Positions 5,592 to 20,970 of a stretch of 38,308 bases of DNA are shown piece by piece. This DNA comes from Zoogloea sp. (GTDB taxonomy: Bacteria > Pseudomonadota > Gammaproteobacteria > Burkholderiales > Rhodocyclaceae). A program made the translations under genes and the position numbers. The notes beneath the pieces are model-generated. The model was not told the DNA's origin and searched no databases. It was given only the letters and a program-made list of their open reading frames with translations. Numbering within the stretch: position 1 is the stretch's first letter; every line of letters begins with the position of its first letter. The DNA is taken from the NCBI RefSeq assembly GCF_028689785.1, contig NZ_JAQVCN010000026.1, positions 25,515 to 63,822 on the forward strand. The letters are read 5' to 3'.

Positions 5592-8186
5592 TCAGTCCGC
5601 AAAGGCGTTGGCAGTGGCCAGCGCCACGGTTAGGTCCAGGTCCCGCTTGATCCACCCAGGTGACGGCTTCAGCCCCAGGGACTCACGGACCCAGGCACGG
5701 CTGCGCGTCACCCCGGGGCCCGACTGCCAGCGGATCGGTTCCGCCAGCGGCACAAAGCCGGCCTGGTGCAAGTACGGGCGCAGGCTGCCGGATCGCAGCT
5801 CGCCTTGATAACCGGCTTTTTGCACCTCGGCTCGCAGGTATTCGACCATCACCACGTTCTTGCTGACCCCAGGGGCGCCAGTGGCGAGAATGTCGGCGAT
5901 CAGGAACGCGAGATCCGACTTCGTGCCCTGGATCATCAGGTCCCGAGCCGTAGTCTGCGGAGCCTCCCCGTTCGGGTTGAACTCCAGCGGGATCGGTGTC
6001 TGGGATAGCCAGAGGGCGATCTGCCCCGGGTGCGCCCGCCCCAGTCCGAAGATCTCGTCGAAGTGGGCATTCCGGGAGACATTGAAAACCGCCGTGCTGA
6101 ACGCATCCATGGCCGCGTAGGACTTGAACGGCGAACGCAGCACGAAGTACCGCCGATCGCCCTCGGTCATAGGCATGCCGTCATCGTGGTTCGTGAAGAG
6201 CAAGTAGTTCGACACGTTCAGCGCGTTGAGGGGGTCCTTGCCCTTGGCGTGCAGCTCCACGCTGTTGTTCGAGATGTAGGGCTTCAGCTTGTTCACCACG
6301 TCGTAGCGGTTGTGCCCCTGGAAGCGGACCTCCTCCAGCACAACGACGCACTGGCCGGTGGACCAGCCGGAGAACGGGGATGTCTGGATCGTGTCGGCGG
6401 ACATGGTCCTGACGTGAGGCTGCCCCAGCAGGATCTGCAGCAGCTCACCGAAGATGGACTTCCCGTCCCCTTCCGCCCCCTTGATCAGGGGTGCCCACCG
6501 GATCTTCACACCCGGGTTCATGTAGTTGAAGGCCAGCCAGGCCTGGAACAGCTTCCGCTCGCGCAGGTCCGGGATGAGCAGGGACAGGTGCCGCTCGAGG
6601 GCGCCGATCAACTGCAGCCCCGCATCGGTATAGCCTCGGTCCGGCAGCACGCGGAGCTCAGGCCGATAGGTGTTCGCCATTTTCAAACCGCCTAGCTCGA
6701 AGGTCTCCCCAAACAGGGGGTGGAACGCCAGCCGGTCAAGGATTGGCACTCGCCAGTGGGACGTCATGCGGTCATAAGGGGAGTAAAGGATTTTCTCGTC
6801 TGCTTCCTGGACCAGGAGGTTCCCCCGGTCCCATCGGTACGTGGTGTTGAACGACAGCACAGAGAGGACCTGCTTCGTACGGCGGTGCATGAATCCATCC
6901 ATGGACGTGATCCAGAACCACTCCTTCGCCCAGTCAGGCCCGAGGAAGAACGGATCGTCCACCGGAGGCATGAGCGCGTCCGTCTCTTCCGGCCGCACCG
7001 GCGCCAAGGCGCGGCGCACCTCGGGCAGCGGGATCAGCACGCCCTTCAGCTCCTTTAGCCGGTTCTGGTAGTGCTTGACCAGGGCGGAGCGGTCGATGTC
7101 CGTGAGCTTGGCCGATCGGATCTCCGCCGCCAGGCCGCCGAGCAGCGTGGTCTCATCCGCCGACCGGATCCGATCGGCCCACGTCAGCACCTGGGCCACA
7201 GCGTCTGCCGAAGTTGCCGTGCGCTTGTAGCCCTTCCAGGCGTCCCCCAGCCAGGTCTTGATGCTACCCACCGTGACCAGGCCCAGGCGCTGCTCTTTGG
7301 CCTTGTTCCAGATCGCCTGCGTGCAGCCGGCGGTGTACTTGACCGACTTCTGAGACCAGGTATCGATCAGGTCGAACGCGGCCTCTTCGTGTTCGGTACC
7401 CTGGAACTGGTGGTGCACCGCGAAGATCGCGTCGCGCCAGGTGTCCCGGTCGTCGCAGAACGACTCCTCCAGGTGGTCCAGCATCCAGGCCAGATCCACC
7501 AGGGACACGTCGTCATGGCGCTGCTTGATGCGGTCGAAGGGGTCGTCCGGGTCGAGGGGCACGCCGGTGTGGGTCTCGGACGATCCGGATTGCTTCGGAG
7601 AGAAGCCCCTGACACACAGGATGGCATCCAAATCCTGGAACACCCATTGCGCCACCTCGTCCCGGTCCAGCACCCGCAGCTGCCACCGCTCAATATCGAG
7701 AGGCCCGGGGCCTTCCCACTGGTACGGGCGCAGGGTATCCGGGTGGATGCCGTAGGCGACAAACTGCTGGCCGATGCCGAGCACTTCCACCCGGTGCTCA
7801 AATCCATCCATCGTCCGGTAGATCGGACTGGTGATCTTGAGGCCTGGCGTCTTGGCGCCGTAAAGCAGCAGCCGTTTCGGCACCTCCCCAATGCGCTTCA
7901 GGCCGGGGCCAAACCGCGCCACGAAGGCCGCCTCAACCGCATCGGCCGCCTCCGGGTAGTAGATGTCCAGGTCGACGGCCACCAGGTCTTCCGTCCGCAG
8001 ACCGGTGTTGTGGGTGCTGAATTCGTTGGCCCAGAACGCAATCTGGTCCGGGTGCATCGGGGCCTCTTCCCACTTCTTGGTCACGGGGCGCTTGCCATAC
8101 GTGGGGATGGGCTGGAAGCCGGCCTGCAGGAGCGCAGGCCCTGCGGTGCCGAAACGTGGAACTTCAGGGTAGCGCAACGTGCTCAC
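5592..8186 (-). CDS. Bifunctional primase-polymerase / SF3-type helicase
   Basis: This 864-residue replication protein has an N-terminal prim-pol domain with catalytic VAVDLD (residues 70-74) and GIHPD (146-150). A PriCT-like linker follows (about 215-320). The C-terminal superfamily 3 helicase (about 535-720) shows Walker A GAEGDGKS (570-577), a Walker B-like VVVLEEV (614-620) and a sensor LLFTNHDDG (662-670). Such fused proteins (virulence-associated E/DUF5906 class) prime and unwind at the phage origin. It starts with GTG at 8186, whose GTGA overlaps the stop of the RecD-like gene, so the two are translationally coupled. No break or missing motif is seen. Confidence 0.92.
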   Translation of the reverse strand: MSTLRYPEVPRFGTAGPALLQAGFQPIPTYGKRPVTKKWEEAPMHPDQIAFWANEFSTHNTGLRTEDLVAVDLDIYYPEAADAVEAAFVARFGPGLKRIGEVPKRLLLYGAKTPGLKITSPIYRTMDGFEHRVEVLGIGQQFVAYGIHPDTLRPYQWEGPGPLDIERWQLRVLDRDEVAQWVFQDLDAILCVRGFSPKQSGSSETHTGVPLDPDDPFDRIKQRHDDVSLVDLAWMLDHLEESFCDDRDTWRDAIFAVHHQFQGTEHEEAAFDLIDTWSQKSVKYTAGCTQAIWNKAKEQRLGLVTVGSIKTWLGDAWKGYKRTATSADAVAQVLTWADRIRSADETTLLGGLAAEIRSAKLTDIDRSALVKHYQNRLKELKGVLIPLPEVRRALAPVRPEETDALMPPVDDPFFLGPDWAKEWFWITSMDGFMHRRTKQVLSVLSFNTTYRWDRGNLLVQEADEKILYSPYDRMTSHWRVPILDRLAFHPLFGETFELGGLKMANTYRPELRVLPDRGYTDAGLQLIGALERHLSLLIPDLRERKLFQAWLAFNYMNPGVKIRWAPLIKGAEGDGKSIFGELLQILLGQPHVRTMSADTIQTSPFSGWSTGQCVVVLEEVRFQGHNRYDVVNKLKPYISNNSVELHAKGKDPLNALNVSNYLLFTNHDDGMPMTEGDRRYFVLRSPFKSYAAMDAFSTAVFNVSRNAHFDEIFGLGRAHPGQIALWLSQTPIPLEFNPNGEAPQTTARDLMIQGTKSDLAFLIADILATGAPGVSKNVVMVEYLRAEVQKAGYQGELRSGSLRPYLHQAGFVPLAEPIRWQSGPGVTRSRAWVRESLGLKPSPGWIKRDLDLTVALATANAFAD

Positions 8187-9581: not shown

Positions 9582-9815
9582 CTACAGCACAGCCTTCAGG
9601 ACCCGACGCAGGTCGGTGACGTGGCCGGCAGGGACGACTTCTAGGTCGAGGCGCGCGAGCAAGGCGCAGACCCGAGGCAGCTGGTCGTTGAGGAGGCGAG
9701 ACAGCTCCACGTCGGACAGGCCCAGATCGGACGCCAGGCGCTTCTGCTGCCCGTAGCTCCGCACGGCGGCCAGGACGAGGTCTCCTGAAACGGGGTGCAA
9801 ATCCTTTTCAGGCAC
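9582..9815 (-). CDS. CII-like regulatory protein
   Basis: This 77-residue protein has a central helix-turn-helix: VRSYGQQKRLASDLGLSDVE leading into LSRLLNDQLPRVCALLARL. That arrangement, including a conserved SxLSRxxxD-like recognition helix and a short hydrophobic C-terminal helix, resembles phage lambda CII-family activators. Family assignment is by appearance only. The start is GTG 9815, 2 bp after the Cro-like stop. In lambda-like phages CII activates repressor and integrase promoters; by position (second gene of the early leftward operon) the same role is plausible here. A later TTG preceded by AAAAGGA is an alternative start. Confidence 0.6.
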   Translation of the reverse strand: MPEKDLHPVSGDLVLAAVRSYGQQKRLASDLGLSDVELSRLLNDQLPRVCALLARLDLEVVPAGHVTDLRRVLKAVL

Positions 9816-9817
9816 TA

Positions 9818-10090
9818 TCAGCCTCGGGGGACCACAGTATTAACGGCAGGCACGCCGCGGATCAGGGCGAAGCGGTCGGCCAGATCAGGTCGCAGAACTT
9901 CGCAGGTGTAAGGACTCCCATCCTCGCGAACCACTCGAAGTTCCCGAGCCATCGCCTCGAGCACCGGGCAGTGCTCCTTGGGGACAAGGGTCCAGTGCGA
10001 AACGGCCGAGGACGACACGTCGCACCGGGCACCCACCGCGGCCGGGCCGCCGAGTGCTTTGATGAGATTTCGGAGTTCAGAGAGGTCCAT
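9818..10090 (-). CDS. Cro-like (YdaS-type) DNA-binding protein
   Basis: This 90-residue protein begins MDLSELRNLIKALGGPAAVG and continues ARCDVSSSAVSHWTL, a classic YdaS/Cro helix-turn-helix in which the Ser-rich recognition helix (SSSAVSHW) contacts DNA. The C-terminal VREDGSPYTCEVLRPDL is the usual YdaS-family tail. It is the first gene of the leftward operon and diverges from the repressor gene across a 120-bp region carrying two operators, exactly the place of Cro in a lambda-type switch. It should compete with the repressor for those operators; that is inferred from family and position. Confidence 0.85.
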   Translation of the reverse strand: MDLSELRNLIKALGGPAAVGARCDVSSSAVSHWTLVPKEHCPVLEAMARELRVVREDGSPYTCEVLRPDLADRFALIRGVPAVNTVVPRG

Positions 10091-10103
10091 CAGAGTTCCT
10101 GTA

Positions 10104-10120
10104 TGTGAGTAACGCTCACA
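10104..10120. promoter_or_regulatory. Phage operator 1 (switch, cro-proximal)
   Basis: TGTGAGTAACGCTCACA has perfect 6-bp arms (TGTGAG/CTCACA) around a 5-bp centre. It is one of six related 17-bp sites in the prophage and abuts the -10 box of the leftward promoter. It is the probable binding site of the divergent repressor and the Cro-like protein. Confidence 0.75.
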
Positions 10121-10148
10121 TCGTACAGGCTGTGCTTTAGGGGAGCAA
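10120..10148 (-). promoter_or_regulatory. Leftward early promoter (cro operon)
   Basis: On the minus strand TTGCTC (10148-10143) is followed after exactly 17 bp by TACGAT (10125-10120). The -35 box lies inside operator 2, and the -10 box abuts operator 1, so binding at either would block RNA polymerase. The Cro-like start codon is about 30 bp downstream of the -10 box. The assignment rests on box match, spacing and context. Confidence 0.65.
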
Positions 10149-10156
10149 CGCTCACA
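10140..10156. promoter_or_regulatory. Phage operator 2 (switch, repressor-proximal)
   Basis: GGGGAGCAACGCTCACA is a hybrid of the two arm types in the family (GGGGAG on one side, CTCACA on the other). It lies 36 bp centre-to-centre from operator 1, contains the -35 box of the leftward promoter, and is 54 bp before the repressor start. It may also control the repressor's own promoter. Confidence 0.72.
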
Positions 10157-10210
10157 TAGTCTTTAAAGCCTGCATGTGGCAAGTTCCCGGCCAGCAATAA
10201 GGAGGAATCC

Positions 10211-10933
10211 GTGATCAAGAAAAGCGAGCTATACCAACGGATCCGGGCTGCGCGTAAGCGTGCCGGGCTGCGTCAAATAGACGTGGCTATCCGGTTCGAG
10301 GTGGATCGCACTGCGGTTACCCAGTGGGAGTCAAAGGACCCTGGCCGGAGAACCCGACCGGACATCGATCGACTAGAAGAGTTTGGGCGGATGACCAGGA
10401 CGCCTCTGTGGTGGCTCTTGTCGGACGACGTAGACATTTCGAGTGCCTGGCCCGAAGTCGCCAACGAGCAGCAAGACGCAGCAGCCCCTACCACCCAGAC
10501 CTTGCGCACCCACATCCGGGACTTCTGGAGTGCCGCGTGTTTACAGGTTCGGGAGCGAAGAGAAGACCTCTGGGACGGCGAGATATGGGATCCACAAGGC
10601 CCTTCCTGGATGGCGCCGATAATTCCCAGCGTAGTATCGAGCCGGACGATTGCGACCTTCATTGCTGTTCCAAGGCCCGACCTGGCACGCGTGGCCGCTG
10701 CGGCCAGCGCCCTCCTGGCGTTCGAGGTAGCAATCGACCGGCAGTTCGAGCGCAAAGTGATTTTGATCTGGAAACCGCGAGCGGAAGGGTGGCCTGCGAA
10801 ATTCAATTCGTATCTAACGGATGTCGATCGGATCTCCCCGCTGGCTCACAGCCTGGCTGACAGCCTGAAACTCACTTTCTTGGAAGTGCAATCTGTCTCC
10901 AGCGCAGCGGAATACCTCACTCAAATTCTTTAA
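10211..10933 (+). CDS. Phage repressor (CI-type position) with non-S24 C-terminal domain
   Basis: This 240-residue protein starts at GTG 10211 behind an excellent AAGGAGG (about 10200-10206). Residues 7-75 form an XRE helix-turn-helix: LYQRIRAARKRAGLRQIDVA, then VDRTAVTQWES. The remainder (about 90-240) lacks the Ala-Gly cleavage site and the Ser/Lys dyad region expected in LexA/CI S24 repressors. It instead has an alpha/beta sequence (SSRTIATFIAVPRPDLARVA, RKVILIWKPRAEGW) that I do not recognise. Position (divergent from a Cro-like gene, flanked by operators) makes it the lysogeny repressor. How it would be inactivated on induction is unclear. Confidence 0.75.
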   Translation: MIKKSELYQRIRAARKRAGLRQIDVAIRFEVDRTAVTQWESKDPGRRTRPDIDRLEEFGRMTRTPLWWLLSDDVDISSAWPEVANEQQDAAAPTTQTLRTHIRDFWSAACLQVRERREDLWDGEIWDPQGPSWMAPIIPSVVSSRTIATFIAVPRPDLARVAAAASALLAFEVAIDRQFERKVILIWKPRAEGWPAKFNSYLTDVDRISPLAHSLADSLKLTFLEVQSVSSAAEYLTQIL

Positions 10934-10970
10934 ATTATTTCTGCAAAAGGGCCTTGCGCCCGGCTCAAAA

Positions 10971-10987
10971 GGTGAGCGATACTCACC
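10971..10987. promoter_or_regulatory. Phage operator 3
   Basis: GGTGAGCGATACTCACC has perfect 6-bp arms around a 5-bp centre. It lies 37 bp after the repressor stop. A rightward promoter (TTGCGC at 10954, 18-bp spacer, GATACT at 10978) would have its -10 box inside this site, so it may control the second rightward operon. The promoter match is modest. Confidence 0.7.
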
Positions 10988-11009
10988 CCGTCACAAGAAA
11001 GAACGAGCG

Positions 11010-11035
11010 CGCCGGCTCTTGCCCGGCGGCTTTTT
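11010..11035 (+). terminator. Possible rho-independent terminator after the repressor gene
   Basis: CGCCGG (11010-11015) pairs with CCGGCG (11023-11028) around a 7-nt loop, followed after two bases by TTTTT (11031-11035). It would end repressor transcription about 75 bp after the stop, separating it from the next operon. The stem is only 6 bp, so the call is tentative. Confidence 0.45.
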
Positions 11036-11046
11036 CCGAAGTGACA

Positions 11047-11063
11047 GGGGAGCATTGCTCCCT
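11047..11063. promoter_or_regulatory. Phage operator 4
   Basis: GGGGAGCATTGCTCCCT has 5-bp perfect inner arms (GGGAG/CTCCC) and lies 39 bp before the start of the small gene at 11102. Three TTGACA hexamers follow it closely (11064, 11077, 11083), but none has a convincing -10 at the right distance. TTGCTC at 11055 with TGACAT 17 bp later resembles the layout seen at operator 2. It is probably the control site of the second rightward operon. Confidence 0.68.
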
Positions 11064-11101
11064 TTGACATCGACATTTGACATTGACAGCGGAGAACCAC
11101 C

Positions 11102-11257
11102 ATGGCCGACAAGCTCGCCCGCGCCAAGGAATTCCTTGGCACCTCTTGGGTCCTACACCCCTTCTACGACCCCTATCTGCACCCCCACCACCGGACCGCT
11201 ACTCCGGTGATTCTGCACGTCGTCCGTGCGGACGCCGTCACCCACAACCGCATCTAA
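11102..11257 (+). CDS. Small hypothetical phage protein, 51 aa
   Basis: ATG 11102 is preceded by GGAG at 11091-11094 and ends at TAA 11255-11257. The product starts MADKLARAKEFLGTSWVLHP and is rich in His, Pro and aromatic residues (FYDPYLHPHH). I do not recognise it, and it has no membrane segment. It is supported by a good ribosome site, first place in an operon right behind operator 4, and a 13-bp gap to the next good start. Confidence 0.6.
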   Translation: MADKLARAKEFLGTSWVLHPFYDPYLHPHHRTATPVILHVVRADAVTHNRI

Positions 11258-11270
11258 TCCCGAGGACACC

Positions 11271-11738
11271 ATGACCATCGAATCCACCTTTGATCGCATC
11301 GCCACCGCTCTCGAAAAGCAGAACGAGCTCCTGAGCGCTCTGCTGGAACGCGCGCTGATCAACTCCCCTGCCGAGGTTGCAGAGGCCCCCAAGGCCCGTG
11401 GCCGCAAGAAAGCCGAGGATGTCGCAGCCCCGCAGCCGGAGACGCCGGTACCGGAGACCCCTGTCAACACCGAGCAGGGTACGGTTCCGGCGGCGTCTGA
11501 ACCTGCCGCCGCTCAACCTGCCGCCGCTCAACCTGCCGCCGGCGTCCCCTCCGTCGAAGAAGTCCAGTCCTTCGCAACCGCCCTGGCGGCCCGGGTCACT
11601 CCCGTGCGCGTGATCGAGCTCATCAAGAAGCAGGGCACGTCCAACATCTCGACCATGTCCGACGAGAAGCGGGCCGCATTCTGGGCCGACATCCAGGCCT
11701 TGGATGCCGAGATCAGCACTGCGAACGCTCTCAGCTGA
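11271..11738 (+). CDS. Hypothetical phage protein with Pro/Ala linker, 155 aa
   Basis: Starting at ATG 11271, the N-terminus (residues 1-40) is a helix, IATALEKQNELLSALLERAL, likely a coiled coil for oligomer formation. A basic patch follows (KARGRKK). Residues about 50-95 are a low-complexity Pro/Ala/Glu linker with three PAAAQ-type units encoded by a 12-bp tandem DNA repeat near 11508-11540. The C-terminal 55 residues (VEEVQSFATALAARVTPVRV to WADIQALDAEI) look like a compact helical domain. It lies directly upstream of a nuclease and an ssDNA-binding protein, so an accessory role in recombination is possible; no family is recognised. Confidence 0.65.
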   Translation: MTIESTFDRIATALEKQNELLSALLERALINSPAEVAEAPKARGRKKAEDVAAPQPETPVPETPVNTEQGTVPAASEPAAAQPAAAQPAAGVPSVEEVQSFATALAARVTPVRVIELIKKQGTSNISTMSDEKRAAFWADIQALDAEISTANALS

Positions 11739-11739
11739 C

Positions 11740-12957
11740 ATGAGCGACCACCACACCCAGGAGCTGCCGGCCGCGCCGGTGGACCACGCGGCCCGTGCCC
11801 ACGCCATTCTGTCGGCGTCGGGCTCGGACCGGTGGATCCACTGCCCCGGGTCGATCCAGCTCTGCCGGGACCTTCCGGACACCACGTCCGAGTTCGCGGA
11901 GTGGGGGACGGTCTGCCATGAGCTGGGCGAGATGGCGCTGCGGGCCCGGTTCCTGGGCGAAAAGCAGGACTTCCAGCAGCGCGTCAAACAGGTGAACCCC
12001 GAGACCGGTGAGGTCACGGAGGTCCCCAAATTTGACGCGGAGCACTTCGCCGCTGTCGCGACATATCGGGACTATGTGACCGAGCTGATCGCACGCTACG
12101 GCGAAGGGGAGCAACCCGTCGTGATCGTGGAACGCCGGCTGAAGTTTCGCCGCTGGGTCCCGCAAGGCTTCGGCACCGGCGACTGCATCCTGGTGTTCCC
12201 TCGCCGCCGCCGCGCAGTGATGGTTGACCTCAAAGGCGGGGAAGGCGTGCTGGTCTCGCCGGAGTGGAACAGCCAGCTCATGCTCTACGGCGCCGGCACC
12301 CTCGACTATTTCGACGGGATCGTGGACATCGACGAGGTGGTGCTGTCGATCTGCCAGCCTCGCCGAGACAACCTCGTCGAGTGGACCATCGACACGCGGG
12401 AGCTCCTGGGCTGGTTGGAGACCATCCGCCCCATTGCGGAAGAGGCCTTCGCCGGATCGAGTCGCCTGGTGGCGGGTGACCACTGCAAGTTCTGCAAGGC
12501 GGCCGCCCGCTGTCCGGAGCGCGCACGGGTTGCCATGACCCTGTTCAAGGACACGCCGGCCCCCGCCCTCCTCTCCATGCAGGAGATCGGCGAGCTGCTG
12601 CCGCACCTGAAGCTGGTCGAGGAGTGGGCGAAGAAGCTGCAGTTCTTCGCATACGACGCCGCAGTGAACCAGGGCATCCAAGTGCCGGGTCACAAGCTGG
12701 TGGCCGGCCGGGCGTACCGCCAGTGGTCCGACATGACAGCCGCGGCGGCGGTGCTGAAGGAGGAAGGTCTCAACGACGACGAGATCTGGAACAAGAAGCT
12801 GGTCGGCATCACCGACCTTGAGAAGAAACTGGGCAAGAAGCACCGCGTCTTCGAGCTCACCGTGAAGGGCGACCCGAAGCCCACCCTCGTACCGGCGGAG
12901 GATCCGCGGCCGGAATGGCGAAGCACCAGCCAGGTGCTCGCCGCCTTTGATGATTGA
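11740..12957 (+). CDS. DUF2800 PD-(D/E)XK nuclease with Fe-S-type cysteines
   Basis: This 405-residue phage protein has an early SGSDRWIHCPGS (27-38) and AEWGTVCHELGE box, then GTGDCI and VDLKGG (163-165 D-x-K), the PD-(D/E)XK active site as in Cas4/AddB-like nucleases. Three C-terminal cysteines, CKFCKAAARC (249, 252, 258), with Cys35 could hold a 4Fe-4S cluster, as in Cas4 and AddB. It probably degrades DNA ends to single strands for phage recombination, working with the next gene. ATG 11740 directly follows the upstream stop; an in-frame start at 11704 lies inside the upstream gene and is less likely. Confidence 0.85.
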   Translation: MSDHHTQELPAAPVDHAARAHAILSASGSDRWIHCPGSIQLCRDLPDTTSEFAEWGTVCHELGEMALRARFLGEKQDFQQRVKQVNPETGEVTEVPKFDAEHFAAVATYRDYVTELIARYGEGEQPVVIVERRLKFRRWVPQGFGTGDCILVFPRRRRAVMVDLKGGEGVLVSPEWNSQLMLYGAGTLDYFDGIVDIDEVVLSICQPRRDNLVEWTIDTRELLGWLETIRPIAEEAFAGSSRLVAGDHCKFCKAAARCPERARVAMTLFKDTPAPALLSMQEIGELLPHLKLVEEWAKKLQFFAYDAAVNQGIQVPGHKLVAGRAYRQWSDMTAAAAVLKEEGLNDDEIWNKKLVGITDLEKKLGKKHRVFELTVKGDPKPTLVPAEDPRPEWRSTSQVLAAFDD

Positions 12958-12975
12958 CATAGGAGCCATTGAGCT

Positions 12976-13620
12976 ATGAGCACCCTGCCCAACACCGTGA
13001 AGAAGCTGTCCAACGTCGAGATCCGCACCGGCCGCGTGCGCCTCTCCTTCCCCCACATTTTCAAACCCCAGGCGAAGAAGGACCAGAAGGGCAACACGGT
13101 CACTGACGACACCGGCAGCCCGGTCCTGCAGTACTCGATGGCCTTGATCATCCCCAAGTCCGAAACGGCAACCGTCGCCGCTATCCAGGAGATCATCAAG
13201 GCCGCAGCGCTCGACTTCTTCGGCCAGGGCAAGGTGCCCCCGGGCTTCGCCGACGGCTTCCGGGATGGTGACACCGACAAGTCCACGCTGCTGGACCCGC
13301 TGGACCCGTCCAAAGGCCGCAAGCCTGAGCTGGTCGGCTCCTGGTTCCTCAACGCTACGACGCGCATGAAGCCGACCATCATCGGCAACGAGAAGGACGC
13401 ATTCACTAACGGCTTCAAGAACCTGACCGAGACGGAAATCAAGGCCGGCGACTGGGTGCGGGTGCAGTTGCGGGCCTACGGCTTCGACGTCGGCACCAAC
13501 AAGGGCGTCGCCTTCTCCTTCTCCGGCATTCAGCTCTTCGAAGTGGGTGAAGCCCTGGCCGCCGGCGGCTTCCGTGCTGATGCCTTCGACGATGAGGAGG
13601 TCTCGAGCGCCTTCGGCTGA
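12976..13620 (+). CDS. DUF2815 ssDNA-binding protein
   Basis: This 214-residue protein contains RTGRVRLSFPHIFKPQA, LQYSMALIIPKSET and a mid-protein LNATTRMKPTIIG, matching the DUF2815 family of phage OB-fold-like single-strand binding proteins. The C-terminus is acidic (DAFDDEEVSSAFG), as in many SSBs, where the tail docks partners. It follows the DUF2800 nuclease by 18 bp. The pair recurs in phages with a family A polymerase and is thought to act in replication-linked recombination. Confidence 0.88.
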   Translation: MSTLPNTVKKLSNVEIRTGRVRLSFPHIFKPQAKKDQKGNTVTDDTGSPVLQYSMALIIPKSETATVAAIQEIIKAAALDFFGQGKVPPGFADGFRDGDTDKSTLLDPLDPSKGRKPELVGSWFLNATTRMKPTIIGNEKDAFTNGFKNLTETEIKAGDWVRVQLRAYGFDVGTNKGVAFSFSGIQLFEVGEALAAGGFRADAFDDEEVSSAFG

Positions 13621-13638
13621 TTCAAGTTTTAGTTTCAA

Positions 13639-13655
13639 GGGGAGCAATGCTCCCC
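13639..13655. promoter_or_regulatory. Phage operator 5
   Basis: GGGGAGCAATGCTCCCC sits in a perfect 19-bp palindrome (AGGGGAGCAATGCTCCCCT, 13638-13656), the best site in the family. It lies in the 129-bp gap between the DUF2815 gene and the winged-helix/polymerase genes. No T-run follows it, which argues against a terminator. I do not see a clear promoter next to it. Confidence 0.72.
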
Positions 13656-13749
13656 TGATTGGAGCCGCCCCGGGGCGTCAGAAAGTGCCGGGGACAACTC
13701 GAGTGCCGACTCTCCCGAGCCGGCAGCCCAGTTGATCAAGGAGAGCGCT

Positions 13750-14349
13750 TTGTCAGTGAAGGGAACCCTGAAGCCTGAGTCGGTCCGCAGCAGAACGCTC
13801 GCCTTCGTTACCGAGCGCGGCGCGGCGTCCATCCGGGACGTGGAGAAAGGCCTGGACGTACCCACCCAGCAGGTATGGAGCGCCCTGACCTACCTGCACG
13901 GCGCCGGGTTTCTCTACATCGCAGGGTGGGGCGTCAGCCCCTTCGGCCGCACTGTCGCTATCTACCGGCCCGGCCCCGGGGAAGATGCCCCTCGCCCGCC
14001 CCCGACAAGCCCCGTCATCTCGAAACGTGCAAGTCGCGCTTCACGTAACTGGGGCTCCTCGCCGGCCGAGATCGACAAAACGCTATCCAAGCTACGCGAC
14101 ACCGAGGCGAAGCACTACCAGGCGCTGATCCTGGACGTTCGTAATCGCATCGCTGAACTGCAAGACCACATCCTGGACTTGCGCGCCCGGCAGGAGCACC
14201 AGATCCAGCGCCTGGAGCTGTCAGCCGCCAAGGCGAAAGCCGCACTCAAGGGCCGTGAAGCCGCCCGCGTAGGCCCGAAGAGCTCCACATTCGGCACCAG
14301 CACGGTGCCGCTGAGCCTGCTGGACCAGCTCCAGAGGGCCAGCCTGTGA
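13750..14349 (+). CDS. Winged-helix DNA-binding protein with coiled coil
   Basis: This 199-residue protein has residues about 15-60 that look like a winged helix-turn-helix (SVRSRTLAFVTERGAASIRD, then VPTQQVWSALTYLHGAGFLY). Residues about 100-165 are a long amphipathic helix (LRDTEAKHYQALILDVRNRI, then AELQDHILDLRARQEHQIQR), a probable coiled coil. TTG 13750 is chosen because AAGGAGAG lies at 13738-13745; GTG 13756 is also possible, and an upstream TTG at 13732 has no ribosome site. Its stop overlaps the polymerase GTG start (GTGA). It is perhaps a replication accessory or regulatory factor; no named family is recognised. Confidence 0.68.
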   Translation: MSVKGTLKPESVRSRTLAFVTERGAASIRDVEKGLDVPTQQVWSALTYLHGAGFLYIAGWGVSPFGRTVAIYRPGPGEDAPRPPPTSPVISKRASRASRNWGSSPAEIDKTLSKLRDTEAKHYQALILDVRNRIAELQDHILDLRARQEHQIQRLELSAAKAKAALKGREAARVGPKSSTFGTSTVPLSLLDQLQRASL

Positions 14350-16481
14350 TCCTCTGGAACGACGCGGAAACGTTCAGCGAACTGGACCTGAAGGCAGTCG
14401 GGACCTACATCTACGCGAACCACCCCAGCACCGAGCTCCTGATGGTGTCCTGGGCGCTGGGCGACGGGCCGGTGCAGCTGTGGGTACCGGCCGAGGGCGA
14501 GCCCATGCCTCCGGCCCTGCTTGCGGCCTACCTGGATGGCTCCATCATCAAGGCGGCACACAACGCAGCCTTCGACCGCAACGTAATTCCCCGGTGCCTG
14601 GAGCGCATGGGGTTGATCACGCGCGAGCAGCGCCTCGCCCTAGTCAATCCAGACCGGTGGGTGTGCACCATGGCCCTGGCGCTGGCGCACGCGCTGCCCC
14701 CTGACCTGGACACCCTGGGTCGAGTACTGGGCCTGGGCGAAGACGAGGCAAAGATCGCCGAGGGGTCGAAGCTGATCCAGCGGTTCTGCAAGCCCGCCCC
14801 GATGAGCCACAAGGCCCGCCGGTACGACCATCACAGCCACCCGGAGCACTGGGCCCGGTTCAAGCGCTATGCCGAGGTAGACGTGGTCGCCATGAGGGCC
14901 TGCCAGAAGCGGACCCCCGCGTGGAACTGGCACCCGCAAGAGGTCGCCCTGTGGCGCCTCGACCAACGTATCAACGACCGCGGCTTCTACGCGGACAAGG
15001 CACTTGTCGATGCCGCGGTACGTGCTGTCGACGAAGAGAAGGAAGTCCTGGCCACCCGGTTCCGGGTCCTCACCCATGGGCGGGTCGAGAAGCCCACACA
15101 GCGGGAGCAGTTCAAGGCATTCCTCGCGGCCGAGCACGGTCTGGTGCTGGAGAACACCCAGGCCGAGACACTCCGCTCGGCGCGGGGCAAAGCCCCGGAT
15201 GGCAGCCCGCTGGCCGAACTCCTCGACATCGCTATCGCCTCGAACAAGACCTCCACCTCCAAGTATGCACGGGTGCAAGTCGCCATCGCGGCGGACGGCC
15301 GAGTCCGCGGAACGATCCAGTACTCCGCTGCAGGCCGCACCCGCCGGTGGGGAGGGCGCCTTTTTCAGCCTCAGAACTTGCCGAGTCGTGGGCTCCCCAA
15401 GGCGACCCTGGTCGACATCTACATCCAGGCCGTCAAGCTGGGTCTGCACACCTGGCTGTTCTCCGACCTGATGCGCTTCGGCTCCGCCGCACTGCGCGGG
15501 GTCGTGACGGCACCGCCCGGCCGGCACATCTGCGCCGCCGACCTCTCGAACATCGAAGGTCGGATGCTCTCGTGGGTCGCCGGCGAAGAGTGGAAGCTGC
15601 TCGCTTTCCGGGCCTACGACACTGGCACGGGCCCGGACCTCTACAACGTCACCGCCAACATGATCATCGGCGTGGACCCGTGGAACGTACCGAAGAAGGT
15701 CCGCAACGTATTCGGCAAAGTGCCCGACCTGGCCAGCGGCTACCAAGGGGGCGTGGCTGGGTACCAGAACTTTGCCCGGGTCTACGGAGTGAAGATGGCG
15801 GACCACTGGGACACCATCCAGAAGTCTGTACCGCCCGAGATCATCACAAAGGCCCGGCACAACCTTGCGAAGCCGTGGGCTCGGCAACAACTCCAAGACC
15901 TGGAAATCTCCGAAGTCGAGTGGCTGGCTTCGGAGGCCTGCAAGCTCGCCTGGCGCGCCAAGCACCCCGCCACGGTCTCCTTCTGGTACGCCATTGAGAA
16001 AGCCGCCAAGGCTGCCATCAAGCTGCCGGGCTCCGTGCACACCGTCACCCGACTGACCGTGACCTGCACGGCGCACGAAGGGCACCGGTGGCTGCAGATC
16101 CTTCTCCCATCGGGCAGCCGCCTCTGCTATTTCGACCCCGGCCTCACCGAGGACGGGAGCCTCTTCTACTGGGGCATGGCGTCGGACGAAGGGTCCGGCG
16201 GCGCCCGAGTCTGGACGCGCTGCTACACCCACGGCGGCAAGCTCACCGGGAACATCTGCCAGACCCTGGCGCGGGACGTCCTGGCCTACGCCATGCCCCC
16301 TATTGAACGGGCCGGCTACGACATCGTGCTCACTGTGCATGACGAGGTCGTCGCCGAAGCCCCTGAATCCCTGGACGAGGGGCCGATGGTTCGGATCCTC
16401 GCCACAAACCCACCCTGGGCGTCCGGCCTACCGCTGGCTGCTGCAGGGTTCTCTGCCCCTCGCTACGCAAAGGAAGATTGA
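14346..16481 (+). CDS. Family A phage DNA polymerase
   Basis: This is a 711-residue polymerase of the bacteriophage type. The 3'-5' exonuclease shows NDAETFS (Asp6, Glu8) and HNAAFDRN (Asp77), with YAEVDVVAM as Exo III. In the polymerase domain, motif A is CAADLSNIEGRMLSW (Asp399), motif B lies in VFGKVPDLASGYQGG, and motif C is LTVHDEVVAE (His665-Asp666-Glu667). No 5' nuclease domain is present, as is normal for phage forms. GTG 14346 overlaps the upstream stop, and the stop overlaps the RdgC start by 1 bp. It should be the replicative polymerase. Confidence 0.93.
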   Translation: MILWNDAETFSELDLKAVGTYIYANHPSTELLMVSWALGDGPVQLWVPAEGEPMPPALLAAYLDGSIIKAAHNAAFDRNVIPRCLERMGLITREQRLALVNPDRWVCTMALALAHALPPDLDTLGRVLGLGEDEAKIAEGSKLIQRFCKPAPMSHKARRYDHHSHPEHWARFKRYAEVDVVAMRACQKRTPAWNWHPQEVALWRLDQRINDRGFYADKALVDAAVRAVDEEKEVLATRFRVLTHGRVEKPTQREQFKAFLAAEHGLVLENTQAETLRSARGKAPDGSPLAELLDIAIASNKTSTSKYARVQVAIAADGRVRGTIQYSAAGRTRRWGGRLFQPQNLPSRGLPKATLVDIYIQAVKLGLHTWLFSDLMRFGSAALRGVVTAPPGRHICAADLSNIEGRMLSWVAGEEWKLLAFRAYDTGTGPDLYNVTANMIIGVDPWNVPKKVRNVFGKVPDLASGYQGGVAGYQNFARVYGVKMADHWDTIQKSVPPEIITKARHNLAKPWARQQLQDLEISEVEWLASEACKLAWRAKHPATVSFWYAIEKAAKAAIKLPGSVHTVTRLTVTCTAHEGHRWLQILLPSGSRLCYFDPGLTEDGSLFYWGMASDEGSGGARVWTRCYTHGGKLTGNICQTLARDVLAYAMPPIERAGYDIVLTVHDEVVAEAPESLDEGPMVRILATNPPWASGLPLAAAGFSAPRYAKED

Positions 16482-17386
16482 TGAAACCTCTTCGCAGTGC
16501 CACCGTATTCCGCCTCGCCTTGCCCCCGCTGGCCGCCTTGGAAGACCACCTGAAAGAGGTGCCTTTCCACGACCCGGACGCGCGCGACATCTACACCGCC
16601 GGCTTCGTGCCGACGCCTACCCTGTCGGAAGGGGAGCTGGCCACCTCTGTCCTCGGCGCCACCGTGTTCTGCCTGCGTGTCGACGAAAAGGTCGTGCCCG
16701 GGGGCGTCGTCCTCGCCGAGGTCCAGAAGCGCGTCGAGACTGAAGAGGAGGAGCTCGGCTTTCGCGTGGGCCGCAAGCGCCGCAGTGAGATCAAAGAGGT
16801 TGTGCTGGCGGATCTCTACGCCCGCGCCTTGATCCGGACGAGCTACACCCCCTTCTTCTATTGCCGCGACAGCCAGCTCCTGATCGTGCCCACCACCTCG
16901 GCGAAGGCGACCAGCCGGGCCACGAAGTACCTGCTGCGCGCCATCGGCGCCATCGAGAGTCGCACCATCCACATCGACGGGCTCAAAGGCGGGCTGACCA
17001 CGCGGCTGGACGGCTACCTGCGCGGCGATGAAGCCGCCTTCGCACCTTTCGAGCTGCTCTCGTCGGTGTGGCTGGAGGGGCCCGGCGGTCAGAAGGTTGC
17101 ATACCAGCTCTCGAGCGACCTGGAAGCTGCCTCGGAGGGCATCCAGGAGGCTCTCACTGCAGGCTTCCAGGTGTCCGCGGTGCAGCTGTCCCACACCGCC
17201 TGCGACTTCCGACTGACCTCCGACTTTCGATTCAAGGGCATCGACTCCGGCGAGAAGGCCGCCGCCCACGACTTCGAGACGGAACAGGATCGTCTGCGTC
17301 ACGACCTGAGCGCCGAGATCGTGTCCTTTGAGGCTGCCGTTAAAGCGCTGATGGACCTGTTCGGCTACAAGGAGAAGGCGGAGTGA
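16481..17386 (+). CDS. rdgC: RdgC-like recombination-associated protein
   Basis: This 301-residue protein has the length of chromosomal RdgC and recognisable blocks: LPPLAALEDHLKEVPFHDPD, VLADLYARALIRTSYTPFFY and ATKYLLRAIGAIES. RdgC forms a ring-shaped dimer around DNA and limits RecA loading in proteobacteria. ATG 16481 overlaps the polymerase stop and has AAAGGAAG upstream. The gene is intact and embedded in the phage replication operon, so it is phage cargo, not host synteny. It probably tunes RecA access to phage DNA; that role is inferred. Confidence 0.88.
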   Translation: MKPLRSATVFRLALPPLAALEDHLKEVPFHDPDARDIYTAGFVPTPTLSEGELATSVLGATVFCLRVDEKVVPGGVVLAEVQKRVETEEEELGFRVGRKRRSEIKEVVLADLYARALIRTSYTPFFYCRDSQLLIVPTTSAKATSRATKYLLRAIGAIESRTIHIDGLKGGLTTRLDGYLRGDEAAFAPFELLSSVWLEGPGGQKVAYQLSSDLEAASEGIQEALTAGFQVSAVQLSHTACDFRLTSDFRFKGIDSGEKAAAHDFETEQDRLRHDLSAEIVSFEAAVKALMDLFGYKEKAE

Positions 17387-17919
17387 TGGAGATACCTGAC
17401 CCTCTATGCTTCGGAGACGGGGCGAAGCTCAGGCTTGAAAGCGCGTCATGCCTCGAGTGTGCGAGTGCCATACGGTGCCTGAATGTCGTCTGTCCCCCGG
17501 TACGCTCGAGGCCGGCACCGGAGACGGAGCTCACTTTCAACCCAGGCATGGCCGCCGTCGCCGCGAAGATGCGGCCGAAAGAAGTGGACCAGGAAACCGA
17601 CCCTAACGGGCTCGACCCGCACGCCCCTGGCGCCAAGCTCGACGCAGGCAAGGTGCGCCCCGATCTGATTCTGGACGGCTTCAGTTTGGCGCTCTGGGCC
17701 GTGGCTGAAGTTGGCACCTATGGTGCGAAGAAGTACACCGAGAACGGATGGGCCTCCGTCGACCGGGGCGAGATTCGCTACCGGGCCGCGGCCGGGCGCC
17801 ACCGCCTCAAACGCGCCCGGGAAAGTCACGACCCGGATACCCAGCTCCTCCATCTCGCGCACGAGGCCTGGAACGTACTGGCCGAGCTGGAGCTCCACCT
17901 CCGGAAGGAATCGGCATGA
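17386..17919 (+). CDS. dATP/dGTP diphosphohydrolase-like protein with Cys-rich N-terminus
   Basis: This 177-residue protein has a C-terminal part (about 80-177) with GAKLDAGKVRPDLIL, AEVGTYGAKKYTENGW, YRAAAGRHRLKRARE and LHLAHEAWNVLAELEL. That is the phage family once called DUF5664 and now described as dATP/dGTP diphosphohydrolase (N-terminal domain), related in logic to MazG-like all-alpha NTP pyrophosphatases. The N-terminal about 75 residues are extra, with CLECASAIRC and two further cysteines, perhaps a small metal site. ATG 17386 overlaps the RdgC stop; GTG 17383 is equally possible. The downstream dCTP deaminase suggests a dNTP-pool module. Confidence 0.75.
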   Translation: MEIPDPLCFGDGAKLRLESASCLECASAIRCLNVVCPPVRSRPAPETELTFNPGMAAVAAKMRPKEVDQETDPNGLDPHAPGAKLDAGKVRPDLILDGFSLALWAVAEVGTYGAKKYTENGWASVDRGEIRYRAAAGRHRLKRARESHDPDTQLLHLAHEAWNVLAELELHLRKESA

Positions 17920-18455
17920 CCTACCTGAACCACCACGAGATCGAAGCCATCCTCGACGCCGGCGCGGTGATCAACTACGACCCCCGCTGCATCAACACTG
18001 CCAGTCTGGATGTCCGACTGGGCAGCAAGGTCCTGGTCGAAAGCGTGCACCCTGACGAGTGGATCATCGACTACCGCCGCCGGGACAAGATGGCCATGTG
18101 CGAGAAGATCCTGGACCCTACCGAGGGGCTGGTCCTCCTGCCGGGCCAGTTCATCCTGGCCCACACCGTCGAGATTTGCGCCTTCCCGGACAACCTGGCG
18201 GCCCTGTTCCGCATCAAGTCCAGCATGGGGCGCATCGCACTGGAGCACCTCGACGCCGGATGGGTAGACCCCGGGTTTCACGGAGCGCTGACCCTGGAGT
18301 TCAAGAACATGAGCTTGAACCACGGGATCCGTCTCCGCCCGGGCGATCCTATCGGCCAGCTGGTGTTCCTCTCGGGGCATCCGGTGGCACCCGACAAGTC
18401 CTATCGCAAGCTGGGCCGGTACGGCGGTTCGAACTCGGTCGAGCAAATCCGATAA
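17916..18455 (+). CDS. dcd: dCTP deaminase
   Basis: This 179-residue protein is close to the usual Dcd length. It has INTASLDVRLG near the N-terminus, and the catalytic block IKSSMGRIALEHLDAGWVDP continues to GFHGALTLEF, with the active-site Glu. The C-terminus has RPGDPIGQLVFL and YGGSN, the nucleotide-binding tail region. It converts dCTP to dUTP, feeding thymidylate synthesis. ATG 17916 overlaps the previous stop (ATGA) with GGAAGGA upstream. In phages it adjusts the dNTP pool; no dUTPase or thymidylate synthase is in view. It is the last gene before operator 6. Confidence 0.9.
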   Translation: MTYLNHHEIEAILDAGAVINYDPRCINTASLDVRLGSKVLVESVHPDEWIIDYRRRDKMAMCEKILDPTEGLVLLPGQFILAHTVEICAFPDNLAALFRIKSSMGRIALEHLDAGWVDPGFHGALTLEFKNMSLNHGIRLRPGDPIGQLVFLSGHPVAPDKSYRKLGRYGGSNSVEQIR

Positions 18456-18472
18456 TGTGAGCAATGCTCCCC
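18456..18472. promoter_or_regulatory. Phage operator 6
   Basis: TGTGAGCAATGCTCCCC combines a TGTGAG left arm with a CTCCCC right arm, a hybrid like operator 2. It starts immediately after the dCTP deaminase stop and is 82 bp before the AlpA-like gene. ATGCTC at 18464 with TACTGC 17 bp later repeats the -35/-10 geometry seen at operator 2, so a promoter may overlap the site. Confidence 0.65.
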
Positions 18473-18473
18473 T

Positions 18474-18533
18474 GCCGCCCGCACCCTACTGCTCGAAAGG
18501 AGAGAAGGGGCTTCTGGAAAAGCTGCGGGCGGC
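18474..18533 (+). repeat. 10-bp inverted repeat in leader of the AlpA-like gene
   Basis: GCCGCCCGCA (18474-18483) is the exact reverse complement of TGCGGGCGGC (18524-18533), with a 40-nt loop. It lies between operator 6 and the AlpA-like start, so it may fold in the mRNA leader. There is no T-run, so it is not a standard terminator. Confidence 0.5.
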
Positions 18534-18553
18534 ACCCTCTGAATGGATGAACG

Positions 18554-18805
18554 ATGGAACAAAATCTGGTCGCAGAAGACGTGCTGGCCTCCCGGATCGC
18601 GGAGGCCGTTGAGCGCGCGCTCTCCGTCCCGGCGGACCGGCGCCTGTGGACCGCCGAGCAAGTCGGCCACTACCTTGGCCTGAAGAAAAGCCGCTTGCAC
18701 CAGGTGCTGGCGTCGCCGAGCTTTCCGGACGCCCGGCGCCCGGCCGGCGGGCATCCGCGGTGGGTCTCTGGTGAGGTGATGAAGTGGGCGGAGAAGCAGA
18801 AGTGA
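18554..18805 (+). CDS. AlpA/excisionase-like HTH protein, 83 aa
   Basis: Residues about 30-80 read LWTAEQVGHYLGLKKSRLHQ, SPSFPDARRPAGGHPRWVSG and EVMKWAEK, the MerR-like wing arrangement of AlpA/Xis-type DNA-binding proteins (helix-turn-helix, then a wing with the PRW signature, then a final helix). Such proteins act as excisionases or activators of integrase genes in prophages. No other excisionase candidate is near the integrase, so this is the best one. The ribosome site before ATG 18554 is weak. Its last 34 bp form the left copy of a direct repeat bracketing the methyltransferase. Confidence 0.7.
   Translation: MEQNLVAEDVLASRIAEAVERALSVPADRRLWTAEQVGHYLGLKKSRLHQVLASPSFPDARRPAGGHPRWVSGEVMKWAEKQK
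18772..18805 (+). repeat. 34-bp direct repeat, left copy
   Basis: This segment (beginning TGAGGTGATGAA and ending AGCAGAAGTGA) recurs at 19558-19591 with 32 of 34 bases identical. Here it encodes the C-terminal end of the AlpA-like protein and the start region of the methyltransferase. The two copies flank the methyltransferase gene. Confidence 0.9.
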
Positions 18806-19591: not shown

Positions 19592-19818
19592 GCCTCCCGG
19601 CCGCCGACGGCCTGAGCCGGGACGACCGGCGCTACGCCATGGAGGTAGGAACGTGGGAGGGCATCCGGATCATCAAGAGTTCCCCGGCGCCAGAGCCTAT
19701 CCGGGTACGAGGGGCCAGCCGAATCCTTCGTGAGCTGATCAGCCGAGTCCTGCGGCCACCTCCGCCATGTCTGTCTGGTAGTACACCATCAGCATGTTCA
19801 AATCCTTGTGCCCGGTGA
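19570..19818 (+). CDS. Small hypothetical phage protein, 82 aa
   Basis: It starts MSGEAEVSLPAADGLSRDDR inside the right copy of the direct repeat, and its first residues mirror the alternative methyltransferase start (GGEAEV). The middle (YAMEVGTWEGIRIIKSS) is plausible protein, but the last about 26 residues overlap the convergent integrase 3' end and are Pro/Ser/Cys-rich, which is suspicious. It may be real with a fortuitous tail, or a remnant. No family is recognised. Confidence 0.4.
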   Translation: MSGEAEVSLPAADGLSRDDRRYAMEVGTWEGIRIIKSSPAPEPIRVRGASRILRELISRVLRPPPPCLSGSTPSACSNPCAR

Positions 19819-20722
19819 TCCGAGCCAAGGTCAACACATCTACCTTCTTGGCCAGTCTGCTAGTCCCCTCCCGGCGCGTGTCGTGGAAGTGCAGATCCTC
19901 GACCCCGGCGTTGTCCCGCGCATTGCGAAACAAGGTGTCCCGCACTTGGTCGCTGATCGTGAAGAGCCGGTCCTCCCCCGGCAATTTGTCGAGTAGCTCC
20001 ACCGCACGCACGGTCAGAGGCACCTCCCGGGCCGCCCCATTCTTCGATCGCGGCACATACACCACCTGCTTCTCGCGGTCGTAGTGCTTGCGCGTGATGG
20101 CCAGCAGCTCGCTTGATCTCATCGCCGTCTCGCATGCGAGCAGGAACGCGACCATCGTCTGATCCGTCGATGTCTGGACGGGAGCCTTGTCGTCGTAGCC
20201 CGCTGCCACCAGGATGGCTTCGATGTCCCCCGGCGGAACCCGGCGAGTCCGGTGCTCCGGCTCTGGAGGCATCTTGACGCCCTTCGTCGGCGTGATGTGC
20301 AGCCACTTCCACTCAGCCACAGCGACTGCGAACATCGACTTCAGGATTGTCAGTTCACGAACGACCGAGGCCGGGCCGACTTTCTTCAGCCGCTTGTCAC
20401 GCAACGCTGCGAAGTCCTCGCTTGTGATGTCGGTCAGCAGCTTGTCCGACCGGGCCCACTCCCGCTCAAGTAGGCCAATCCGGAGCAGCTCCCAGCGGGC
20501 GCCCTTCTTCGCTGGGATGACCTCTTCCTTGTAACGCTTAATGGCATCGCCCAGGGTCTTCTTCGGCAGGTTGCCACGCCGCACCGAGACTGCCTCCGCC
20601 TCTTGCTCCGCGCCCCAGGCCTGAGCTTCGGCTTTGGTCTTGAAGGTCTCTGACTTCGTGACGCCGGCCTTGCGCACGCGCACGCGCCAGGTCCCCGCTG
20701 CGGTCTTCTCGATGCTTGCCAT
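19739..20722 (-). CDS. int: Tyrosine-family phage integrase
   Basis: This is a 327-residue integrase. The N-terminal arm-binding/AP2-like region has [24 protein letters not shown]-like core-binding domain spans about 55-150. The catalytic domain contains Arg202 (ETAMRSSEL), Lys227 (PRSKNGAAR), His280-x-x-Arg283 (HFHDTRREG), His305 (ITGHKDL) and Tyr314 or Tyr315 (MVYYQTD), so all key residues are present. ATG 20722 starts at [10 protein letters not shown], the usual beginning for this family; an earlier in-frame start (20752) adds unconserved sequence. The gene reads away from the adjacent tRNA-Leu, which is the likely attachment gene. Confidence 0.95.
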
Positions 20723-20885: not shown

Positions 20886-20970
20886 TGGTGCCGAGAGTGG
20901 GACTCGAACCCACACACCTTGCGGCGGCGGATTTTGAATCCGCTGCGTCTACCGATTCCGCCATCCCGGC
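20886..20970 (-). tRNA. tRNA-Leu (anticodon CAA)
   Basis: The 85-nt minus-strand gene includes an encoded CCA (20888-20886). The acceptor stem GCCGGGA pairs with TCTCGGC (one G-T). The anticodon stem GCGGA/TCCGC encloses loop TTCAAAA with anticodon CAA. The long variable arm (CGCCGCAAGGTGTG region) and the T-loop GTTCGAGTCC are typical of leucine tRNAs. The gene is intact, so the prophage restored its 3' end if it integrated here. Confidence 0.95.

Follow-up and report, generated by a model that had tools for sequence, protein, structure and literature searches.

Dispersed 17-bp dyad sites as probable immunity operators of a Zoogloea sp. prophage

A stretch of 38,308 nucleotides from Zoogloea sp. 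(contig NZ_JAQVCN010000026.1, positions 25,515 to 63,822), hereafter the window, covers one end of a prophage in which a preliminary description, made from the sequence alone, had noted six dispersed 17-bp sites of the form xGxGAG-N5-CTCxCx. All six (6/6) are present. The family is real but its size was understated, since the prophage carries 16 such sites together with two modules of a C4 antisense RNA and an anti-repressor (Ant) gene. The sites are probably dispersed immunity operators of the prophage's own regulators, with lysogeny held by many scattered locks and released through Ant. The site family, its phage specificity, its placement, its conservation in one related phage record and partly in a second, and the C4/ant modules can be read directly from the DNA.

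Site family and phage specificity

The window corresponds to positions 25515-63822 of its contig (C30), so that 25514 is added to a window position to obtain the C30 position; the other prophage end lies on a second contig, C73. The arm class is T or G at the third position of each arm (T-type, GTGAG/CTCAC; G-type, GGGAG/CTCCC). The candidate operators of the window are as follows.

10104..10120: TGTGAGTAACGCTCACA, T/T arms, next to cro, in one-base contact with the -10 of the cro promoter and covering the start region
10140..10156: GGGGAGCAACGCTCACA, G/T arms, on the repressor side, covering the -35 of the cro promoter
10971..10987: GGTGAGCGATACTCACC, T/T arms, just after the repressor gene; counterpart at 6062 of the phage record L173, also T/T
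11047..11063: GGGGAGCATTGCTCCCT, G/G arms, before the rightward early genes; L173 counterpart at 5812, also G/G
13639..13655: GGGGAGCAATGCTCCCC, G/G arms, in the gap after the single-stranded DNA (ssDNA)-binding protein gene (12976-13620); L173 counterpart at 3517, also G/G
18456..18472: TGTGAGCAATGCTCCCC, T/G arms, in the gap after a dCTP-deaminase-like gene, with a GATAAT -10-like hexamer just upstream

The loose pattern GNGAG-N5-CTCNC matches seven times in the window, against 1.82 on average and at most 6 in 100 dinucleotide shuffles. The seventh match, at 24245, is in host DNA on the far side of the tRNA-Leu attachment site, and its arms differ (GCGAG/CTCGC). Used alone, this pattern is a weak marker because it matches 68 times genome-wide versus 55 for a reversed control. 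The strict symmetric form GKGAGYN3RCTCMC occurs 17 times in the 5.08-Mb genome versus once for the control, with 11 sites on C30, 3 on C73 and 3 elsewhere. A motif scan of the full prophage had been proposed as a check, with equal density in the host genome as a sign against the claim; the strict form is concentrated in the prophage (14/17), where the three outside sites would predict 0.04.

The 16 loose sites of the prophage comprise 13 on C30 (19206, 19703, 19733, 20157, 22304, 24824, 24853, 35618, 35654, 36485, 36561, 39153 and 43970) and 3 on C73 (27772, 27926 and 34821). The last six on C30, from 35618 to 43970, are the six sites described earlier, and the other seven lie just left of the window. 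A de novo search of the C30 prophage part for repeated dyads with 5-base arms ranked GGGAG-N5-CTCCC first, with 6 copies against 0.07 expected. Scoring with a matrix built from the 16 sites yielded two extra candidates, C30 21587 in the gap that follows the anti-repressor gene (12.8 bits, where 0.6 sites above 12 bits are expected per 46 kb) and the weaker C73 38924 (10.6 bits).

Prophage extent

The window end of the prophage is marked by two features.

19739..20722, minus strand: prophage integrase (Phage_integrase, 4.6e-20), beside tRNA-Leu
20886..20970, minus strand: tRNA-Leu(caa), the attachment site, with a 23-bp core at 20886-20908

The 23-bp core is repeated on C73 at 23879, and the core with three further bases is present in 7 of 23 genomes of the genus, the own genome among them. 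In the six others the site is empty, and the gene flanking the prophage on C73 and that flanking it on C30 lie directly on either side. Because the core recurs on C73 and the empty-site genomes join both flanking genes, we take these two contigs to carry opposite ends of a single prophage. Its size, from the attachment cores to the contig ends, is about 63.9 kb, which is a minimum since further contigs may intervene.

The right part of the window, past the attachment site, consists of host genes. It includes a long open frame at 33803-38308 (1502 amino acids by our caller) with many internal repeats, open at the contig end. At the left edge of the window, a 27-base tandem repeat encoding 9-residue units (e.g., AASGDGSQL) spans window positions 1-184 and C30 25153-25414, and C30 25415-25514 is masked with N.

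Site placement and promoters

Genes were called with our own script, which called the repressor frame only at its end, and the 240-amino-acid frame was added by hand. With these calls, 12 of the 13 sites on C30 lie entirely between genes and the remaining one reaches 5 bases into the end of a gene, although intergenic DNA makes up only 13.4% of the C30 prophage stretch (binomial P of 4e-10 for 12/13). An equal density of the motif inside genes, which would have spoken against operators, is not what C30 shows. The description of all six window sites as lying at starts of transcription units holds for 10104 and 10140 and plausibly for 11047, but 10971 closely follows the repressor gene, and 13639 and 18456 lie between co-directional genes. 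A unit start at 11047 is plausible because the following feature precedes the site.

11010..11028, plus strand: terminator-like hairpin between sites 10971 and 11047 (consensus match only)

Terminator-like consensus matches number 3 in the region, versus 5.8 in shuffles.

Promoters were scored with a sigma-70 matrix, and intergenic control positions reach 10.0 bits at their 95th percentile. Two near-consensus promoters have a site in the spacer: the site at C30 19206 fills the spacer of TTGAAA-17-TAGAAT (minus strand, 16.7 bits), which faces the terminase and late genes, and the site at C30 19703 lies, one base shifted, within the spacer of TTGACT-17-TATTCT (14.5 bits). At 18456 (C30 43970), TTCGAA-17-GATAAT scores 9.9 bits, with GATAAT just upstream of the site. 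The switch region contains one further candidate.

10120..10148, minus strand: probable cro promoter, with -35 TTGCTC (10148-10143), a 17-bp spacer and -10 TACGAT (10125-10120)

Its score of 5.6 bits is alone not above background; L173 has TTGCTC-17-TAAGAT at the same place. The right arms of 10140, 11047 and 18456 had been proposed to form -35 elements; a -35/-10 pair exists at 10140, on the minus strand, but the versions at 11047 and 18456 are not among the best three candidates.

Two sites left of the window are followed by a further repeated element: at C30 20157-20230 and 22304-22375, each operator is followed by a similar, potentially stem-forming stretch of about 70 bases (GAGTCACC...GTCGAGAGTTGAYTC), and the stems after 20157 and 22304 have z scores of -2.2 and -0.9 against mononucleotide shuffles.

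Conservation in related phages

A search for the tandem operator pair gave 13 stretches, among them L173, an IMG/VR phage record that matches 11 called proteins of the prophage, including the Cro-like regulator (54% over 79 positions), the CII-like regulator (79%) and a polymerase-like protein (68%); another of the stretches, L176, has one protein match. The 58.7-kb record of L173 contains 13 loose sites versus 0 for the control. Its cro-side 17-mer, when read along cro, is identical to that of the prophage and lies beside cro in both phages, with the same 36-bp register as between 10104 and 10140. In addition, the prophage sites that follow the repressor and ssDNA-binding protein genes have counterparts in L173. 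The L173 sites at 29677 and 33676 have no second site near, and the latter is inside the homologue of a 1288-amino-acid gene.

The repressor homologue of L173 (about 6080-6800, minus strand) has a frame with two TAG codons, with several neighbouring frames open; recoding, a broken gene or a sequence error are possible explanations. ARAGORN found no tRNA in 14.7 kb of L173, and the Rfam tRNA model matches 1965-2064 at 46 bits.

Relatives were also sought through the terminase, which identified five viral contigs (L161 to L165) and, among 249 genomes of the family, three besides the own one, of which G239 is close (68%) and G154 and G183 are weaker matches. Sites were examined in L161 to L165 and G239. 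L161, whose terminase is 79% identical and which also carries a C4 RNA, retains the promoter and dyad of 19703 in a syntenic stretch, though with substituted letters (TTGCAC-[AAGTGAGCAACACTCAC]-TAAGAT). A scan of related phages, also proposed earlier, thus found sites at corresponding junctions in L173 and at 19703 in L161, and none in G239.

Downstream of the 19703 promoter, C30 19730-19930 is conserved with L161 1323-1564 (78.5% over 247 bases, with 30 identical bases within and single-base gaps). This stretch may be a non-coding RNA or a long leader under repressor control.

An exact scan of viral contigs for GGGAGCAATGCTCCC found at least 120 stretches; among the loci retrieved from the listed matches, only L065 and L082 have more than one strict site. 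Another record, L179 (IMG/VR 3300035488_000076), has seven sites like TGTGAGC-N3-GCTCACA in 14 kb by matrix score and eight loose-pattern sites in the whole record. It has no match to the called proteins, and a PHROG scan of ten of its open reading frames gave only families of unknown function. Its sites may belong to a separate family of dispersed operators, or the half-site may have come into use independently in the two phages.

Immunity regulators

Three putative regulators are encoded around the pair at 10104 and 10140.

10211..10933, plus strand: putative immunity repressor, 240 amino acids, with an N-terminal helix-turn-helix (HTH_31, 25.1 bits, cut-off 27)
9818..10090, minus strand: Cro-like regulator, 90 amino acids (YdaS, 28.6 bits, cut-off 30; P22_Cro, 20.4 bits, cut-off 30.2)
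9582..9815, minus strand: CII-like regulator (phrog_725), with an L173 homologue 79% identical

The repressor has no match to Peptidase_S24, the LexA-like self-cleavage domain of lambda-type SOS-cleavable repressors, in Pfam at E 0.001, which reports only HTH_31. Against PDB sequences it gave weak helix-turn-helix matches only (best E of 0.024), and an AlphaFold2 model from sequence alone was unusable, with a mean predicted local distance difference test score of 37. A stretch of its helix-turn-helix, DRTAVTQWE, is also found in the L173 homologue. Searches of a phage collection with the immunity region, the repressor and Cro gave no match. A Cro profile detected two loci in viral contigs, the record of L173 itself and L187, and no match in genome contigs; the Cro of L187 is 40% identical, and different dyads lie beside its cro.

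The earlier proposal that one regulator controls the leftward early operon and at least three rightward units is partly supported by the sequence, insofar as one phage-specific family of candidate operators lies at many units and 10104/10140 appears to be a repressor/cro-like switch that is matched in L173.

C4 antisense RNAs and anti-repressor modules

Two C4 antisense RNAs (RF01695, cut-off 45 bits) were predicted, and in the same test the C4 of phage P1 scores 68.8 bits.

C30 20698-20783: C4 antisense RNA, 60.2 bits
C73 34603-34686: C4 antisense RNA, 61.2 bits

Both lie 45 bases before called gene starts. The gene after C4 on C30 matches anti-repressor families, and that on C73 is its paralogue, within a 79%-identical stretch. 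Complementary stretches between C4 and the ant leader comprise 10 bases on C30 and 8 bases on C73, counted without a shuffle control, and, for the upstream a1/b1 target, the C4 target family RF03163 matches at 29.8 and 32.3 bits, below its cut-off of 46.7. Ahead of the C73 C4, an operator directly adjoins a promoter-like TTGACG-18-TAGAGT (identified by eye and unscored), whereas the promoter of the C30 C4 lacks an operator.

Matches to isrK RNA lie just upstream of both C4 RNAs (L006 3601-3676 and L007 16707-16784; 37.9 and 36.6 bits, below the cut-off of 50). In the host genus, C4 RNA occurs in 23 of the 60 genomes searched, the own genome included, with 15, 17 and 18 matches in G015, G020 and G019, respectively, and 6 in the own genome.

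Arm classes

The preliminary description distinguished two arm types and hybrids, a distinction that the counts from two phages favour. Among the 16 sites of the prophage, 7 are G/G, 4 T/T, 4 G/T and 1 G/A. Mixed arms (5/16, versus 8.35 expected, P of 0.07) are not clearly avoided here, but like pairs with like in the combined data: mixed arms number 1/13 in the record of L173 (P of 0.00015; 0/12 and P of 0.0004 without the site inside the repressor gene) and 6/29 in both phages together (15.5 expected, P of 0.00014). A single G649 site, located within the repressor gene, affects these counts, and the P values are a guide only because the comparison was post hoc and sites within one genome may share descent. 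Two other pairs of variable positions have no clear coupling (P of 0.10 to 1.0).

The class agrees between the prophage and L173 at five corresponding positions, namely, the cro-side site (T/T), the first (T/T) and second (G/G) sites after the repressor gene, the site after the ssDNA-binding protein gene (G/G) and that in the large gene (T/T), the last lying at different places within the gene in the two phages. At two further corresponding positions the prophage sites are mixed and those of L173 are G/G, and the site corresponding to C30 19703 (G/T) is T/T in L161. Near partners are found for 7 of 9 T/T sites versus 5 of 14 G/G sites, the G649 repressor-gene site being left out, which is not significant (P of 0.09).

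The earlier suggestion of two proteins reading the same frame can be extended, tentatively, to a two-letter code in which the repressor and the Cro-like protein would differ, throughout the phage, in their preference for T- and G-type dyads. Switch loci would then carry a T-type dyad beside a G-bearing site, outlying units mostly a single G-type dyad, and Cro would act on a subset of the repressor regulon; we regard this as doubtful. If the arm classes are read by different proteins, the prophage would offer a compact natural test of two regulators dividing one set of sites genome-wide.

Proposed mechanism and alternatives

From the arrangement of sites, regulators and C4/ant modules we infer which protein binds the sites, the repression itself and the role of Ant as inducer. 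The repressor (10211-10933), and probably the Cro-like protein (9818-10090), would bind the 17-bp dyad GKGAGYN3RCTCMC at at least 16 places over about 64 kb. Where an operator lies in or against a sigma-70-like promoter, as at C30 19206, C30 19703, the cro promoter and the C73 C4 promoter, binding would block RNA polymerase; at 13639, C30 22304 and C30 24824/24853, in gaps between co-directional genes, it would form a roadblock or affect weak promoters. Many scattered locks of this kind, instead of one central lock, would maintain lysogeny, and release would come from Ant of the two C4/ant modules, each silenced by its C4 antisense RNA, as in P1.

Several observations weigh against this reading. 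Only the 19206 and 19703 promoters exceed the 95th percentile of the controls, and most sites lack a clear promoter, since the mean score over 17 sites is 6.1 bits versus 4.3 for intergenic controls and 4.8 for shuffled flanks with the site kept; a consensus promoter scan of window positions 9900-18700 found 0 versus 0.8 in shuffles. On C73, only 1 of 3 sites is intergenic, and the other two fall within coding sequence, close to where a 162-amino-acid gene meets the 1288-amino-acid gene. A close homologue of the repressor was not found in 399 genomes of the order or in scans of viral and genome contigs, and the relatives gave only weak helix-turn-helix matches (1 of 60 genomes besides the own one and 2 of 399). 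Of the six terminase relatives only L161 has sites, with none by the loose pattern in L162 to L165 and G239, though L162 to L165 share mainly late genes, and the second site of the 19703 pair is degenerate in L161. The pair in L173 is not independent evidence because L173 was found via the operator pair; its other sites and gene order are independent.

The alternative closest to this mechanism, with which it overlaps except in the roles, is that the Cro-like protein is the main reader of the sites, in lytic growth, and that the 240-amino-acid repressor binds only at 10104/10140. Cro is conserved in both phages with this site family (54%), and the phiKO2 repressor CB and Cro are described as binding different operators (PMC4997575). 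However, the DRTAVTQWE stretch of the repressor is also common to L173, dispersed sites in P1 and SPbeta are reported to be bound by the lysogenic repressor (PMC8546580, PMC10516654), and in the account of phiKO2 it is the single site that belongs to Cro (PMC4997575), so that we consider this division of roles unlikely. It is more improbable still that the dyads are RNA hairpins (terminators or attenuators) between genes and not DNA operators. Arms such as GGGGAGC-GAT-GCTCCCC would fold into a 7-pair stem, and several sites lie between co-directional genes, but none of the six window sites is terminator-like in the scan, the mixed arms (5/16) leave unpaired positions, and two sites lie within promoter spacers. 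Sites of a host regulator or a general chromosomal element, present in the prophage by chance, would fit the genome-wide count of the loose pattern (68 versus 55); this is very improbable given a strict form with 14 sites inside the prophage and 3 outside in about 5 Mb and a family that recurs in L173. Partition or replication iterons (a parS-like or origin-binding array), suggested by short repeated sites across a phage genome, some of them near replication genes, are equally improbable in a prophage integrated at tRNA-Leu with an integrase, with no partition gene among the scanned proteins (part of the prophage genes) and with sites between repressor and cro and within promoter spacers.

Comparison with known systems

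In Streptomyces phage phiC31, conserved inverted repeats are dispersed 17-bp operators. The literature searched concerned systems of this kind rather than this prophage itself. The statement that a multi-site regulon goes beyond the usual compact left and right operator (OL/OR) arrangement was too strong, since such regulons are already known in P1, L5 and SPbeta. P1 is described as having 22 dispersed C1 operators (PMC8546580) and as being regulated by C1, Ant and C4 (PMC8198154). Mycobacteriophage L5 is reported to carry about 24 repressor-bound stoperators, genome-wide and predominantly intergenic (PMC5712189), and in SPbeta the promoters of about ten prophage genes are reported to contain a repeated motif (SPBRE) that the master repressor MrpR binds (PMC10516654).

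The prophage resembles P1, in which many dispersed 17-bp operators are bound by one repressor (PMC8546580). In the P1 record (NC_005856), C1 operators are annotated at c4, before ssb and before a unit with an rdgC-like and a methyltransferase gene; the icd-ant genes of P1 are preceded by its C4 antisense RNA, and Oc4 overlaps the -35 of P2c4. However, the P1 operator consensus is given as asymmetric, ATTGCTCTAATAAATTT (PMC8546580), whereas the sites here are dyads. Unlike P1, the prophage is integrated in the chromosome, has cro- and CII-like genes beside the repressor and carries two C4/ant modules. No P1 protein match was found at a tblastn E of 0.01 with the called proteins of C30 and of C73 18001-38000 and the repressor; for the repressor, the best tblastn match to P1 DNA (E of 0.12) lies inside the portal gene and C1 homology was not found, distant homology being beyond this test. 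Because the operator is a dyad and no P1 protein matches, the system would work like that of P1 without being a member of its group.

The immB region of the telomere phages N15/phiKO2 is similar in having a repressor and cro with operators between them, and in its published description self-cleaving residues are undetected in CB; it differs in having five operators at two places, against 16 over the prophage here (PMC4997575). L5 differs from the prophage, where the site is a 17-bp dyad, and SPbeta differs in its 15-bp motif and in the tyrosine-recombinase-like fold reported for MrpR, against a helix-turn-helix repressor here (PMC10516654). The system is best read as dispersed-operator immunity like that of the P1 C1 operators, the L5 stoperators and the SPbeta SPBRE. 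If this is true, the prophage would be a palindromic, chromosomally integrated, Cro-bearing addition, with two C4/ant modules, to the few known dispersed-operator immunity systems.

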